Source: Candidatus Electryonea clarkiae (GTDB lineage Bacteria; Electryoneota; Electryoneia; Electryoneales; Electryoneaceae). From it: a DNA stretch of 64,000 nt. This document shows positions 3,992-64,000 of this stretch, piece after piece. The number at the start of each line of letters is the position of its first letter. Position 1 is the stretch's first letter. The translations under genes and the position numbers were made by a program. Below the pieces are notes generated by a model, which was not told the DNA's origin, did no database searches, and saw only the letters and a list, made by a program, of their open reading frames with translations. The stretch spans positions 1 to 64,000 of the forward strand of contig JAVCCM010000008.1 of the NCBI GenBank assembly GCA_030765455.1, written 5' to 3'.

Positions 3992-4038
3992 AATTGAATT
4001 ATCCAGTCATGAATAGTATTGAATTTTAATATAATAAA

Positions 4039-4061
4039 CCCTGTTTGATGAACAAACAGGG
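4039..4061. repeat. REP-like hairpin beside the RAYT gene
   Basis: A 23-base near-perfect hairpin: stem CCCTGTTTG / CAAACAGGG around ATGAA. It lies 48 bases upstream of the transposase start. A sister hairpin at 55133-55161 has the same loop region but a changed, still paired stem (CCCATG / CATGGG), which suggests the structure is conserved. Likely the cognate REP of this RAYT. Confidence 0.6.
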
Positions 4062-4338
4062 GCACACATTTTGAGTCATTACGTCATAATAAGCCTTGGT
4101 TTTCAATATAATACTCGTATTTCTGAAGTAAAAAAGAATTCAAGTCGCTGTGCATTATATCCATTTACATCATATCGTGCAAAATATACTGGCACAATGC
4201 ATGCTTTGCATGGATCGTTTCTTATGATTTGATGGTGTTCGATGGATATCCCGAAACGGAGAGACAGTATTTCATCCTAAAGATAAAAGTAACAAGCATT
4301 AAAAATGCCTCGAAAAATCATTCCTGAAAATCTTCAGG

Positions 4339-12087: not shown

Positions 12088-12400
12088 TATGAAACAGCGC
12101 CCTATGTGTTATTCGTATCATAAGATTCAAGTGATAAACAGTGAGAAGTTCAGCGTTCTTACTTCAGTATATAACTAAAGCAAGCTGAAGCTTGGACTCT
12201 ATACTTTTAATCTCTATACGGTTGGAACGACTCCTTTCCAATCCAATAACCGATGTTCGCCTTCAAGTTTCCTGATCCCGGTTACGTCTTGTATTACTTC
12301 TAATGTTCCTCACTTGCAACAGCAAGCGGATAAAGCCTATCGTATTCATATCGCAATATTGCTATAAATATTAAAAGTAACAATAAAACCAAAACAAATT
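12088..12400. other. Intergenic stretch with one palindrome
   Basis: No gene recognised. Holds one copy of the palindrome CAAGCTGAAGCTTG (about 12180-12193) followed by 'GGACTCTATAC', the same family as the array at 13513-13840. Confidence 0.5.
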
Positions 12401-12625
12401 ATGCCAGAAACAGAAGTTCTCTTTTTTGCCGAATCTGATGGAATAGCGCCTGCGCTTGTTTAGATATCTGGTTTGCCGAAAAAAATGCAGGATAAGGCTG
12501 AAGCTCGTATTCTTCGATTGGAGGAAGCCGGGTACGAGCTGAAACGCCCGGTTGCTGATATTCTCAGGGATGGAATTTATGAATTACGCTGGAGTGGCTG
12601 TATAGTGTGCCATTTAAACTCTTGA
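12401..12625 (+). pseudogene. Decayed HigB/RelE-type toxin (Gp49-like)
   Basis: Reading from ATG 12401 gives a start of a RelE/HigB (phage Gp49-like) mRNA interferase: 'GLPKKMQDKAEARI', 'LEEAGYELKRPVA', 'LRDGIYELRW'. It has an in-frame TAG at 12461-12463 where relatives have tryptophan (one G-to-A change), and the conserved 3' half is gone, replaced by a palindromic repeat from about 12632. Non-functional as read. Its antitoxin partner is the equally broken frame at 13193. Confidence 0.7.
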
Positions 12626-12631
12626 TAATCA

Positions 12632-12720
12632 GTCATTCTGAACGTAGTGAAGAATCTCGACTTTCAACAGAGCAGGTTGTGATTCAAACACTTGAGATTC
12701 TTCACTGCGTTCAGAATGAC
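12632..12720. repeat. GTCATTCTGAACG palindromic element (89 bp)
   Basis: Arms of about 26 bases: GTCATTCTGAACG...AAGAATCTC at the left and the reverse complement ending TTCAGAATGAC at the right. It sits where the HigB-like gene breaks off. Confidence 0.85.
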
Positions 12721-12738
12721 AGCGAACGAACAGAATGT

Positions 12739-12872
12739 CCAGTCCCGTAGGGACGACTGGGTCAGCGCAAGAAGAACTTTCCATCATCAGTCGTCCCTAC
12801 GGGACTTAATATATTGATATTACTACACCCACCCTTGAAAGGGTGGGCTAAAATCAACAGTCCCTACGGGAC
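12739..12872. repeat. Nested palindromes around TCCCTACGGGA
   Basis: AGTCCCGTAGGGACGACT (from 12741) is repeated inverted at 12788-12806, then a hairpin CCCACCCTT/AAGGGTGGG (about 12827-12848) and a further GTCCCTACGGGAC (12860-12872). A compound insertion of short palindromic repeats. Confidence 0.75.
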
Positions 12873-12885
12873 AGACTCTGCACGT

Positions 12886-12973
12886 ACAACTCTATAATTC
12901 TATCTTAACAACTCTATAATTTTAGCTTAACAACTCTATAATATTAGCTTAACAACTCTATAATTTTAGCTTA
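12886..12973. repeat. 22-bp tandem repeat, four units
   Basis: Four head-to-tail units of ACAACTCTATAATTTTAGCTTA-like sequence start at 12886, 12908, 12930 and 12952; units two to four differ at one or two bases. No gene is associated. Confidence 0.9.
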
Positions 12974-13039
12974 ACGATATAATCTGAGTTAAACAGATTT
13001 GCATGCTGAAGTATTGTAGTTCTTGAAAAAATAATATGC

Positions 13040-13140
13040 GCTTGAGCAAGGTGACAAGTTGATCTTGCTTCGAAGCAATCCTTTATAAATAAGATTCTTG
13101 CGTTGAATCAGGGGATTGCTTCAATTTTCGCAATGACGGC
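13040..13140. repeat. Degenerate GTCATTGCGAG palindromic element
   Basis: The right arm GGGGATTGCTTC...CGCAATGACGGC (13111-13141) is clear and the left arm (CTTGCTTCGAAGCAATCC) is eroded. Same family as 47565-47659. Confidence 0.6.
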
Positions 13141-13192
13141 TTCTTTTCGAGAGATACTAAAGATTTGCCCTAAATGGCGGGAGGGTATATAA

Positions 13193-13492
13193 ATGGGTAT
13201 CACAAAAACAGGTAAAGCGTCAATTACACTGAAAAAACGACGTGGTGATAATCCCAAACGCGAGATACGTGTACAGGAAGAGCTTGCGAAGCTGCGCATT
13301 TACCACATGATCGCCCAAATGCGTGAGGCTTAAGGTTTATCACAAACGGAACTTGCGGAACTGATGGGTACAACACAATCTGTAATCTCACGCATCGAAA
13401 GCGGGAATTATAACCGTCTTACTGTCAGCACGCTCATGAAAGCCGCGGCTGCAACCGGTCATCAATTGAAAATTGCTGCCGAACCTGTGTGA
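13193..13492 (+). pseudogene. Decayed HigA-type antitoxin (XRE/HTH_3)
   Basis: From ATG 13193 the frame gives a 98-codon HigA-like protein: 'VQEELAKLRIYHMIAQMREA', then a TAA at 13331-13333, then a canonical helix-turn-helix 'GLSQTELAELMGTTQSVIS', 'RIESGNYNRLTVSTL' and the tail 'GHQLKIAAEP' before the real stop at 13490. Relatives usually have glutamine at the interrupted codon, so one C-to-T change would explain it. With the broken HigB-like gene 570 bp upstream this is a dead HigBA module. Re-initiation inside the HTH cannot be excluded. Confidence 0.8.
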
Positions 13493-13512
13493 ACAATTTT
13501 TAGCAAAGTATA

Positions 13513-13840
13513 GAGTCCAACCTTCAGGTTGTTCTTGTAGTGCTTGAGCGTTGACAAGACTCTGCAAGCTGAAGCTTGTACTCTGTGCTGTTTTGAGTCC
13601 AACCTTCAGGTTGTTCTTGTAGTGCTTGAACGTTGGCAAGACTCTGCAAGCTGAAGCTTGTACTCTGTACTGTTTTGAGTCCAACCTTCAGGTTGTTCTT
13701 GTAGTGCTTGAGCGTTGACAAGACTTTGCAAGCTGAAGCTTGTACTCTGTACTGTTTAGAGTCCAACCTTCAGGTTGTTCTTGTAGGGCTTGAGCGTTGA
13801 CAAGACTCTGCAAGCTGAAGCTTGTACTCTAAACTTTCGG
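13513..13840. repeat. 82-bp tandem repeat, four units, made of two palindromes
   Basis: GAGTCCAACC recurs at 13513, 13595, 13677 and 13759, exactly 82 bases apart. Each unit holds CAACCTTCAGGTTG and CAAGCTGAAGCTTG. Units differ at few positions. The minus strand is open through them by chance. Not CRISPR: the sequence between palindromes is itself repeated. Single relatives lie at 12180, 22921 and 55268. Confidence 0.92.
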
Positions 13841-55182: not shown

Positions 55183-55346
55183 TTATTACATATCCATCCC
55201 TCAGGTTTTTTGATCAGATCTTATACAAGTTGCTTTCAAAGGATGATCTTTAAACTCACGTACTAACGCCAGCAAGCTAAAGCTTGTACTCTATACCTGA
55301 CTGTTTGAAAGATACGTAACTGTTTGAAAGCAAATTGATATTACCA

Positions 55347-55766
55347 TTATAAATTTGTCATGAGTTCTTCTCCGGTAATAAGGACAATCCTCTCGATTTT
55401 CGCTAATTCAATGAGTTCAGGGGTAAATCCGGCTGCACTGAATAGTACAAAATGTAGATCACCATCTATTTGTTCAGGCAAATACCGGACTTTCTGTTTC
55501 ATTTTTTTAAGAACATTAATTCCTACAGGCGATTTCCACCATTTGCATTCTCCAACTAAGAAACTCTGCTCACTTTTGCTGAAGACTTCGGCAATGAGAT
55601 CAAACTCTCCGGCGAAAAACTTTCGTAAACCACCAGACTCCTCGCTTTCGGCGTCCATGTCATTCATAAATTAATAGATAAGGGCGATAGTGATCTGCTC
55701 GACCTGGCTTTTTGGATCGGGCACTTTGCCGACGAGAATATCGCGAGCGGTGTCGGTGTCCAGCAT
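55347..55766 (-). pseudogene. Chimeric remnant: hsdM start fused to DUF234-type C-terminus
   Basis: From ATG 55766 the frame reads like the N-terminus of a type I methyltransferase HsdM ('ARDILVGKVPDPKSQVEQI', 'TIALIY'), hits TAA at 55671-55673, and continues in the same frame as HsdM ('MNDMDAESEESGGLRKFFAGEF'). From there it becomes 'DLIAEVFSKSEQSFLVGECKW', the C-terminal nuclease-like DUF234 domain of archaeal-type AAA ATPases, running to the end at 55347. The switch falls on G-E-F, present in both families. A short internal deletion near codon 7 is also likely. Not a working methylase. Confidence 0.75.
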
Positions 55767-55772
55767 AGTTGG

Positions 55773-56597
55773 TTATTCTTTGATTTGTTTCAGCGTGGGT
55801 ACTGAGGCGAGTACCTTCATCTGCCGGATGGCGATTTCGTTGAGGCGTTTTAAACGTTCCCCTTGTGACAGCCCCAAATGAATAAGTTCGGCGTTCATGC
55901 TTTCGATATTAGCAAGCACCAAAAGTTGATCGATGGAAGAATACTCGCGCATATTTCCTTCAAGATCAGGATTGTTAGTCCGCCACTGCCCGGCGGTCTG
56001 ACCGAAAAGGGCAACATTGAGAATGTCCGCTTCGCTGGCATAGGTGATGGCAGCTTGCGCCGGTGTAACTTCGGTTGGAATCAGGTGCGCCTGAATAGCG
56101 TCCGTGTGGATGCGATAGTTGAGTTTGGCAAGTGTACGGTTAAGGTTCCACTCAAGGGACAGGCGGTTGTTTTCTTCATCCTTAAGACGCTGAAATTCTC
56201 TGATGAGGTAAATCTTGAATTCCGGACTGATCCACATGCCGAATTCAAATGCAATATCTTTATGCGCGTAAGTGCCGCCGTATCGCCCGGCTGTTGCTTT
56301 CAAGCCTATGGCACGAGTTTTATTAACCCACTCCTTGACGCTAATCTTATAGTTGTTTAGTCCCGCCCGGTTTCTAATTGTGGCGAATTCGCCATAATTA
56401 AAATCAGGATTGTAAACGCTCTCCCAGATGCCAAGAAACTCGACAGTGTTGCGATTTCTCAGCCAGTCGGAAATAAAAAATTCACCGTCTTTCGCTTTTA
56501 ACATATCCGTCAGGGAAATGTAGTCTCCCTGAGGTTGCGACAGGATCGTTATCTCTGTTCCCTGAACTGCTATAATTGATTTTCCGGTCTTGCTCAT
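55773..56597 (-). CDS. KilA-N domain protein
   Basis: 274 residues, apparently intact. The KilA-N DNA-binding domain spans about 10-125 ('GDYISLTDMLKAKDGEFFISDWLRN', 'NRAGLNNYKISVKEW', 'GRYGGTYAHKDIAFEFGMWIS'), followed by helical 'FKIYLIREFQRLKDEE' and a C-terminal part ending 'VLASVPTLKQIKE'. Such proteins often sit within type I restriction-modification operons and phages; function there is unknown. A strong GAGGAG site precedes the start, inside the hsdR remnant. It lies between the hsdR and hsdM remnants. Confidence 0.9.
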   Translation of the reverse strand: MSKTGKSIIAVQGTEITILSQPQGDYISLTDMLKAKDGEFFISDWLRNRNTVEFLGIWESVYNPDFNYGEFATIRNRAGLNNYKISVKEWVNKTRAIGLKATAGRYGGTYAHKDIAFEFGMWISPEFKIYLIREFQRLKDEENNRLSLEWNLNRTLAKLNYRIHTDAIQAHLIPTEVTPAQAAITYASEADILNVALFGQTAGQWRTNNPDLEGNMREYSSIDQLLVLANIESMNAELIHLGLSQGERLKRLNEIAIRQMKVLASVPTLKQIKE

Positions 56598-56599
56598 TA

Positions 56600-56707
56600 T
56601 TACTCCTCTATGCAGATATTGGCAGGTTTGTTTTTCTCAGGAAAGAAACGCCACCCTGATTTTTCGAGGAGCTTGTTTATCTTTATGCGAGCTGTTGCTT
56701 CTTTCAT
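56600..56707 (-). pseudogene. hsdR 5' remnant (35 codons)
   Basis: From ATG 56707 the frame 'MKEATARIKINKLLEKSGWR' onward repeats the N-terminus of the hsdR gene at 62738, then stops at TAA 56602. The 122 bp 56606-56727 match 62718-62839 in inverted orientation with six mismatches, including the sequence before the ATG. The remaining hsdR is gone and the KilA-N gene follows directly. Confidence 0.9.
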
Positions 56708-56984
56708 GTGAAAATTGTTCTCCAGAGATAGTAAATGCAAACATCCTTGATGATATTCAGATAAAAATAGGTATCATAAAATACAACACAGTTTTTTCTC
56801 AAACAATACGGAATCAAGCGCTCACATCATTATGGGACTTAATTACTCTCCTGTAAGATGATCACTGTAAATCATTGAGGGGCTCTTTCTTTTGTTGCCT
56901 TGATTGTTATTAAGTTGTATTTTTGCTGTTTCCAATTGGGTTTCAACCTGCCTGTATTGTGTTACATGAAATGAGGGAGAAGGA

Positions 56985-62149: not shown

Positions 62150-62482
62150 ATGCAATTAGTAATCAAGCCATATCACCAACTGAAACATTGGATAGTGGAG
62201 ATAATAGTGGAAACTGAAGTTGTACGAATCTTGACAGTGACCTTTGAAGCACATGCTCAACAGACAGAGAATGGAGTTGAATATTGGCTTGCTCGAGATT
62301 TACAGCAGCTTCTGGGGTATGCGAAATGGGTAAACTTTCTAAACGTTGTTACGAAAGCTAAGACCGCTTGTGAAGTCAGTGGTCATAAAGTGTCAGACCA
62401 TTTTGCTGACGTCAGCAAAAAGGTTGACTTAGGATCAGGTAGTCAGCGAGATATTGATGATATCATGGGGACTTCGCCTTGA
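62150..62482 (+). pseudogene. DinD-like protein, truncated
   Basis: About 110 codons matching the N-terminal part of DNA-damage-inducible protein D: 'TFEAHAQQTENGVEYWLARDLQQLLGY', 'WVNFLNVVTKAKTACEVSG', 'HFADVSKKVDLGSGSQRDIDD'. Full-length DinD is about 280 residues and continues with 'LSRYACYLI'; here the frame ends after 'DDIMGTSP'. The true start is uncertain (ATG 62150 or GTG near 62207). The 255 bp to hsdR hold no recognisable gene. DinD relatives often sit in type I restriction loci. Confidence 0.65.
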
Positions 62483-62717: not shown

Positions 62718-62839
62718 CTCTGGAGAATAATTTTCACATGAAAGAAGCAACAGCTCGCATAAAGATTAATAAGCTCCTCGAAAAATCAGGGTGGCGTTTC
62801 TTTCCTGAGAAAAACAAACCTGCCAATATATGCCTTGAG
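62718..62839. repeat. 122-bp inverted duplicate of 56606-56727
   Basis: Covers the ribosome site and first 34 codons of hsdR. Six mismatches to the copy upstream of the KilA-N gene. Confidence 0.95.
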
Positions 62840-64000
62840 CCGAGCGTGAAGATCAAGTCTTCCGATCTGGAAGCACTTGGGGAGGACTTCGAGAAAACTA
62901 CGAGGGGGTTTATTGACTTTTTACTGCTTGATTCAAAAGGTTTTCCGCTTATCGTTCTTGAAGCAAAATCTGAAGATAGGAATCCTTTTGACGGCAAAGA
63001 GCAGGCACGGAAATACGCAAGGTCTCTCAACTGTCGTTTCGTAATTCTTTCTAACGGAAATCTTCACTATTTCTGGGACTTGGAACGTGGTAATCCATAC
63101 CTGATTACGACTTTCCCCTCTCCGGATTCCGTAATTGGATATCAAAAGATCATACCCAATCCTCAACGCCTTATTGATGAAAAAGTCGGTGACGACTATA
63201 TAGCATTGACTCAGCGTCCGAACTACGCCTCAGAAGCTGCTTGGAAAAATGAGAGTGAGCGTCCCGGCTACATCAAAGCCAATAATCTTCGTTTCCTGCG
63301 ACCCTATCAATTAAATGCAGTGCACGCCTTACAACGGGCAGTGAAAGACGGGGATGATCGTTTCCTCTTCGAGATGGCAACAGGCACGGGAAAAACACTT
63401 ACCGCAGCGGCAGTTATCAGGCTTTTTCTCCGTACCGGAAATGCCCAGCGCGTATTGTTCCTGGTGGATCGACTCGAACTCGAGGATCAAGCTAATAAGG
63501 CTTTCAAAACGCTCCTCTCCGCAGATTTTCAATCAGTTATCTATAAAGAGAACCGAGATGACTGGCGGCGGGCGGAAATAGTGGTTACCACCGTGCAATC
63601 ACTTCTGTTCAACAACAAGTATCAGCAGCTCTTCTCGCCGACCGATTTTGATCTGGTCATCTCCGATGAAGCTCACCGCTCTATCGGCGGGAACGCACGT
63701 GCAGTATTCGAATACTTCATCGGCTATAAACTCGGACTCACAGCCACGCCACGCGACTATCTCAGGAAATTTGATAAATCCGATCCTTCCACCCGTGATC
63801 CACGTGAAGCAGAACGGCGGCTTCTTATGGATACATATCGCACTTTCGGCTGCGAGAAAAGCCAACCTACATTTCGTTATTCTCTGCTCGATGGTGTAAA
63901 GGAAGGCTATTTGATTAATCCCACGGTGGTTGATGCACGTACTGATATCACAACCGAACTACTTTCCGAGCAAGGTTTTATTGTCTCTTTCACCGATGAT
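62738..64000 (+). CDS. hsdR: Type I restriction endonuclease subunit R (3' end beyond window)
   Basis: Open from ATG 62738 to the last base: 421 residues of a protein usually about 800-1100 long. HsdR cuts DNA and drives translocation in a complex with HsdM and HsdS. Seen: PD-(D/E)XK nuclease with D60 and E75-x-K77 ('IDFLLLD', 'VLEAKSED'), Q-like 'LRPYQLNAV' (187-195), Walker A TGTGKT (215-220), DEAH box (310-313) and motif III LTATP (334-338). TGGAG lies 13 bases before the start. kilA-N, hsdM and hsdS are expected further right, by comparison with the remnant at 55.3-56.7 kb. Confidence 0.96.
   Translation, partial: MKEATARIKINKLLEKSGWRFFPEKNKPANICLEPSVKIKSSDLEALGEDFEKTTRGFIDFLLLDSKGFPLIVLEAKSEDRNPFDGKEQARKYARSLNCRFVILSNGNLHYFWDLERGNPYLITTFPSPDSVIGYQKIIPNPQRLIDEKVGDDYIALTQRPNYASEAAWKNESERPGYIKANNLRFLRPYQLNAVHALQRAVKDGDDRFLFEMATGTGKTLTAAAVIRLFLRTGNAQRVLFLVDRLELEDQANKAFKTLLSADFQSVIYKENRDDWRRAEIVVTTVQSLLFNNKYQQLFSPTDFDLVISDEAHRSIGGNARAVFEYFIGYKLGLTATPRDYLRKFDKSDPSTRDPREAERRLLMDTYRTFGCEKSQPTFRYSLLDGVKEGYLINPTVVDARTDITTELLSEQGFIVSFTDD

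Follow-up and report, generated by a model that had tools for sequence, protein, structure and literature searches.

Organisation of the two loci

The window, i.e. the whole stretch of 64,000 nucleotides of Candidatus Electryonea clarkiae DNA analysed here, belongs to a contig that extends to 100,924. Its minus strand carries the start of an hsdR gene (hsdR'), a whole kilA-N gene and the start of an hsdM gene (hsdM'), all of them where the initial annotation had placed them (Table 1). The short open reading frame of hsdR' stops at the start of kilA-N. At the junction 5' of kilA-N, CTGCATAG appears to be the very end of hsdR, which an internal deletion of that gene would have left in place. The sequence after hsdM', previously described as unrelated, codes for the end of an Mrr_cat-type nuclease domain, joined in frame to hsdM' by a deletion. 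With only about 34 hsdR codons, a broken hsdM start and no hsdS, this wreck does not qualify as a type I restriction-modification locus. To its left, a 25-bp motif (55271-55296) recurs near 12.2 kb (window 12179-13834), with copies at 82-bp spacing near 13.6 kb.

The neighbouring locus qualifies as type I restriction-modification by its ResIII/HSDR_N, N6_Mtase and Methylase_S domains. It had been suggested that homologues of kilA-N and hsdM should lie to the right of position 64,000. An hsdM homologue is present there on the contig, whereas kilA-N is absent between the adjoining hsdR and hsdM-S genes.

Table 1. Features of the wrecked locus and of the neighbouring locus (positions on the contig, which are also those of the window up to 64,000)
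Feature	Position	Strand	Remarks
Mrr_cat-type nuclease domain tail	55347-55600 (right end approximate)	-	Pfam PF04471, 22.7 bits (cut-off 21)
hsdM' (hsdM start, about 50 codons)	55601-55770	-	18-bp in-frame deletion and premature stop
kilA-N	55773-56597	-	intact ORF of 274 codons; PADLOC PDC-S22
30-bp palindrome TTTAATTATGGCGAATTCGCCACAATTAGA	56373-56402	-	kilA-N codons 66-75; proposed self-encoded operator
Probable recognition helix EFFISDWLRNR	56451-56483	-	kilA-N codons 39-49; columns covary with palindrome arms
hsdR' remnant	56606-56737	-	leader with ribosome-binding site and about 34 codons; ATG at 56707
Truncated dinD/Bro-N gene (PDC-S13)	62150-62482	+	upstream of intact hsdR
Perfect 20-bp palindrome TTTTGCTGACGTCAGCAAAA	62401-62420	+	inside truncated dinD
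Intact hsdR	62738-64000 in window, to 65272 on contig	+	ATG at 62738
hsdM-S fusion	65282-67804		3' of intact hsdR
DUF6602 gene	67801-68505		3' of hsdM-S fusion

Origin of the wreck

The initial annotation explained the wreck as an inverted and gutted copy of the neighbouring locus, with nothing else notable. In agreement with such a duplication, hsdR' and the start of the intact hsdR, leader included, are 94% identical over 132 bp (56737-56606 vs. 62839-62708; E = 8e-54), with three synonymous and no amino-acid differences in 32 codons. In addition, among all relatives, the intact copy is the nearest to both flanks of kilA-N. However, the neighbouring locus has no kilA-N gene, and the divergences of the two flanks are unequal. 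The hsdM parts (55755-55601 vs. 65311-65465) are 83% identical (E = 7e-42), and the 49 compared codons of hsdM' show a premature stop and five further amino-acid differences. Synonymous differences affect 15 of these 49 codons (dS about 1.2) vs. 3 of 32 codons in the hsdR parts (Fisher P = 0.014), so that the flanks do not share one common duplication date. Judging by these divergences, the hsdM parts separated anciently and the hsdR' parts recently. A single duplication followed by inversion and gutting is therefore improbable. We infer that the data are better explained if the two alleles were acquired separately and sequence was later exchanged at the 5' end of hsdR. An assembly artefact is ruled out, since the copies have diverged at about 6% and 17% of sites.

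An ancestral hsdR-kilA-N-hsdM operon, as had been proposed, is confirmed by relatives with the same hsdR/hsdM family: this order was found, with hardly any intergenic spacing, in a deltaproteobacterium (L010), an actinomycetotan (L015) and a spirochaete (L042). Moreover, a second, independent wreck in a member of the Latescibacterota (L036:2293-3599) consists of an hsdR tail, kilA-N and an hsdM start, and its kilA-N gene is interrupted by about 80 bp. The ancestral order is thus real, and the survival of kilA-N is not universal. Among 39 genomes of the same phylum, only four (its own included) carry kilA-N and two this hsdM, too few for a comparison of the states before and after the deletion.

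The kilA-N gene was indeed the only one left whole: beside the broken hsdM', its reading frame is intact and shows no deviation at 80 near-invariant columns. The proposed dN/dS check gave 0.078 against the L010 gene; as most of this divergence predates the wreck, the value indicates an absence of decay and not the strength of selection since. These observations support the view that kilA-N outlived its operon without decay.

The kilA-N family

The kilA-N product matches the Pfam KilA-N profile (PF04383; 84.5 bits, cut-off 23.8) and, over residues 3-273, the PADLOC profile PDLC04962 (PDC-S22; 428 bits). PDC-S22 and PDC-S13 (DinD) are both PADLOC phage-defence candidate families. The gene is single-copy in its own 5.76-Mb genome. 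We collected 80 kilA-N loci from a scan of species genomes, and an iterative profile search detected HsdR, HsdM or HsdS no further than 6 kb from kilA-N in 33 of them, which is a lower bound because many contigs are short. It seems from this distribution that kilA-N also occurs outside type I loci.

The AlphaFold2 model of the protein has a mean pLDDT of 83.7 and a pTM of 0.55, with only moderate confidence around residues 31-50; residues 41-45 and 68-77 are helical in it. With this model, the best Foldseek neighbour was the DNA-damage protein DdrC of Deinococcus radiodurans (8u0g; E = 1e-4), with low TM-scores of 0.29-0.36, and a weak match to the APSES domain of Mbp1 (1mb1; E = 0.09) was also found. 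A sequence search of the PDB returned nothing useful and no close solved relative. No nuclease domain was found in KilA-N with Pfam profiles.

A conserved palindrome within the kilA-N reading frame

The main feature of the interval, more important than the wreck and absent from the initial annotation, is a palindrome inside kilA-N that covaries with the protein. A codon-by-codon entropy scan over the 80 kilA-N genes revealed that codons 66-76 are nearly without synonymous variation, while nearly all other codons are saturated. The frozen codons are AAT (79/79), GGC (76/76), GCC (76/76), ATA (45/45), ATT (75/76) and GAA (79/80). The consensus TTTAATTATGGCGAATTCGCCATAATTAAA, a perfect 30-bp palindrome encoding FNYGEFAIIK, is exact in 24 of the 80 genes, and the gene of the window keeps 13 of the 15 pairs. 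Distant relatives have other palindromes at the same codons, for example TTTAATCCCATCGAATTCGATGGGATTAAA (L007), TTTAACATGGTGGAATTCCACCATGTTAAA (L144), TTTAAAGGTGTCGAATTCGACACCTTTAAA (L145) and TTTAATTATACCGAATTCGGTATAATTAAA (L148). On viral contigs (L172-L174, about 4001-4259), frameshifted kilA-N genes end a few codons past the palindrome.

Among 143 non-redundant kilA-N genes, we counted 79 distinct 30-mers and 39 inner arms, with up to four Watson-Crick types per arm position. Both arms change together, and at least 11 of 15 pairs are kept in 141 of 142 genes. Mean pairing is 13.8 out of 15 vs. 8.95 when synonymous codons are shuffled, with P < 0.01 in 125 of 135 genes. In 61 genes with about 52,000 windows altogether, only 63 windows, i.e. 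about one per gene, reach 12 pairs. Protein constraint alone is ruled out as the cause of the palindrome by this shuffling and by the changes of class. From this pattern, the palindrome is almost certainly selected as DNA.

Selection might instead bear on a hairpin of the mRNA or of single-stranded DNA, and not on a double-stranded operator, given that any palindrome can fold and that pairing is kept as the arms change. However, single-sided mispairs on the sense strand (29 A.C, 20 G.U) show no wobble bias, and the sequence of one subfamily is frozen even though paired synonymous changes would preserve a hairpin. Moreover, structure alone does not predict the covariation between helix and arms described below, and a hairpin is very improbable.

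Covariation between a helix of KilA-N and the palindrome arms

We then searched for protein columns that covary with the arms, leaving out the codons around the palindrome and taking permutation maxima as threshold. Columns 40, 44, 47 and 43 covary most, above the 99% permutation maximum, with a spacing that corresponds to one face of a helix; one outlier is seen, at column 87. Correlation averages 0.215 for residues 36-49 (permutation maximum 0.103) and about zero elsewhere. The associations approach a code: ADxIKNW goes with GGTC, xYxIQNW with CATC and DxIRNW with GTC, and for single residues, E43 goes with TTCC, D39 with CCC, K39 with GG, R39 with CCG and Q47 with G at position 12.

Using the nearest neighbour at helix residues 39, 40, 43, 44 and 47, 83-85% of the variable arm bases are predicted, vs. 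50-63% with the nearest relative by overall identity and 41-44% at random. The data used to choose these five columns are also those on which they are scored, a circularity answered only in part by control sets and new paralogues: none of 1000 equally variable control column sets matches the five-residue prediction, and newly fetched paralogues mostly obey the code (PKDVVKNW with AGGGGTC, GLVISHW with TGTTACT), one of them (TDYVIQNW) departing from it at a single base.

Part of this covariation could reflect coupling within the protein, between the helix and the peptide encoded by the palindrome. The only kilA-N gene without an internal palindrome, L311 (helix NDLIRNW), argues against such coupling, albeit as one gene only: CTAAACCCGTCGAAATCGACGGGTTTAAA, about 17 bp before its ATG, is of the class predicted by its helix (CCCGTC). 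The covariation makes it very probable that the palindrome is read by the protein that it helps to encode.

Palindromes outside kilA-N genes

No second copy of the window palindrome was found within three mismatches in its own genome, and the flanks of 142 kilA-N loci contain almost no palindromes. A regulon of many sites is rejected on both counts. The few palindromes near kilA-N loci are mostly upstream (6 in 58.6 kb upstream vs. 2 in 1,219 kb elsewhere), and those upstream of kilA-N in L033, L071 and L158 are of a foreign class. Simple autoregulation does not account for these foreign-class palindromes, which suggest cross-talk between KilA-N types.

Two of these loci have an unusual arrangement. 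In L033 (5850-5985), the gap between hsdR and kilA-N holds four tandem kilA-N-type palindromes that belong to different classes, with TTTAA/TTAAA ends common to all. In L071 (400-1040), a kilA-N fragment cut just past its palindrome is followed by further isolated palindromes, then by a complete kilA-N gene whose start codon is a few bases after the last of them. Both arrangements would be in keeping with a palindrome that is a recombination or homing site for the exchange or insertion of kilA-N. Such a role seems most unlikely: neither a recombinase nor defined element ends were found, most genes have no neighbouring copy, and a recombination site does not predict the helix code.

Co-resident kilA-N paralogues differ in class in 16 of 18 pairs, against an expectation of 32% of pairs of the same class from the pool, which is rough because the sample was drawn through one class. 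This difference would be in line with allele recognition, in which the protein would bind any DNA carrying the same kilA-N allele, so that an incoming copy would be excluded, silenced or marked. The site would then be placed inside the gene so that the two cannot be separated. The constant presence of the site in the gene and its near absence from other places, the many and mutually distinct classes and the foreign-class palindromes upstream of some kilA-N genes also agree with this role. On the other hand, KilA-N has no nuclease domain, the matching site of L311 is near the start codon like an operator, and the expectation for paralogues is only approximate. We consider allele recognition unlikely.

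The same design in DinD/Bro-N

In dinD genes from kilA-N-bearing genomes, palindromes that have variable arms and reach 30 bp lie at the motif DHFxxVxKM. At least 11 of 15 pairs are kept in 67 of 87 non-redundant dinD genes. The dinD gene of Escherichia coli K-12 carries GACCATTTCGAGGAGATCCTCGATATGGTC, with 13 of 15 pairs. In DinD, covariation with the arms is seen at residues 38 and 36 (EWRNF with GTTGA, QWRNF with GCTGA, QWRRF with GCCGA, KWENF with CCTGA and RWENF with CGTGA). At the strictest redundancy cut-off (22 representatives), the helix prediction was not significantly better than that from the nearest relative (P = 0.19), although no control set equalled it. The dinD/Bro-N family replicates the self-palindrome design, more weakly at the strictest cut-off. 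In three loci, a dinD-type palindrome is found outside dinD (L328:1918, L368:1911, L355:2847); it precedes the gene in two viral-contig loci and directly follows it in one.

Among 30 RhuM (Virulence_RhuM) genes, one isolated window with 12 of 15 pairs was found and otherwise none. A general property of accessory DNA-binding genes in such loci is rejected on this negative result.

A proposed self-encoded operator

The interval holds the remains of a former hsdR-kilA-N-hsdM operon. With a probability of about two in three, the KilA-N protein still encoded there would bind, as a dimer, an operator in its own reading frame, likely for autoregulation in cis. The dimer would read the palindrome of about 30 bp through helix residues around 39-47, and the palindrome at codons 66-75 would be its own operator. 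As it is written into the reading frame, gene and operator would be inseparable. Distinct KilA-N types have distinct helices and matching distinct palindromes. The bound dimer might block or tune transcription through kilA-N and, in a type I operon, might also limit downstream hsdM/hsdS. An internal operator would be well suited to a promoterless gene that moves between foreign operons. The single site within three mismatches in its genome makes a local role likely, and the site of L311 before its start codon supports an operator role; a use of the palindrome for autoregulation in cis is probable. That the protein physically binds the site, that it does so as a dimer, in which direction and with what effect it regulates, and any benefit to the host are what we infer from comparison of sequences.

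We propose "self-encoded operator" as a class for genes in which a fixed-codon palindrome is conserved beyond protein constraint, its arm is predicted by the protein's own helix, and the protein would bind this site and thereby control its gene. The first two properties are found in kilA-N and in dinD, the second with less support for dinD at the strictest cut-off. The design recurs with different palindromes in well over 100 kilA-N relatives and in E. coli dinD.

A broader conjecture, which we regard as doubtful, is that KilA-N and DinD each encode their own palindrome by a simple residue-to-base code, so that alleles would recognise themselves and not others. They would form a self-recognition system of mobile defence-locus genes, and arrays of foreign palindromes would serve to record encounters with other alleles or to control them.

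If the proposed operator is real, two large and poorly understood families of restriction-modification loci (KilA-N and DinD/Bro-N) would gain a concrete role, and the DNA site of each member would be predictable from its own gene. The dozens of natural helix-palindrome pairs could serve to decipher a protein-DNA recognition code, and the gene would clearly exemplify how a single DNA segment can be selected simultaneously as protein and as operator. It would also offer a possible answer to how a promoterless mobile gene carries its regulation into any operon. Since dinD of E. coli K-12 shows the design, it is directly testable in a laboratory strain.

Comparison with known systems

We found no description of the internal kilA-N/dinD palindrome in the open-licence literature of PMC. 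The PDC-S22 and PDC-S13 candidates probably come from a 2024 bioRxiv preprint by Payne et al.; they are the same protein families, and their genes likewise lie inside type I restriction-modification loci. The controller (C) proteins of type II restriction-modification systems are small DNA-binding proteins that control their own expression through palindromic boxes. They resemble KilA-N as small DNA-binding proteins of restriction-modification loci with palindromic sites, but they have a different fold and their boxes are in the promoter, outside the reading frame. Operators inside coding sequences are known, such as lac O2 and gal OI; unlike the kilA-N site, they are not at fixed codons of the binder's gene and do not co-diversify with a recognition helix. 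RptR is a homodimeric repressor linked to type I restriction-modification islands that autoregulates through palindromes (PMC12255303). Unlike KilA-N, it is an alpha-helical protein that uses 6-bp TAGCTA repeats in its promoter (PMC12255303). Finally, for RGG motifs and G-quadruplexes, the sequence that codes for the binding part is at the same time what this part binds (PMC11789052). This target, unlike the proposed kilA-N site, is RNA and consists of low-complexity repeats set by the genetic code, with no specific palindrome (PMC11789052).
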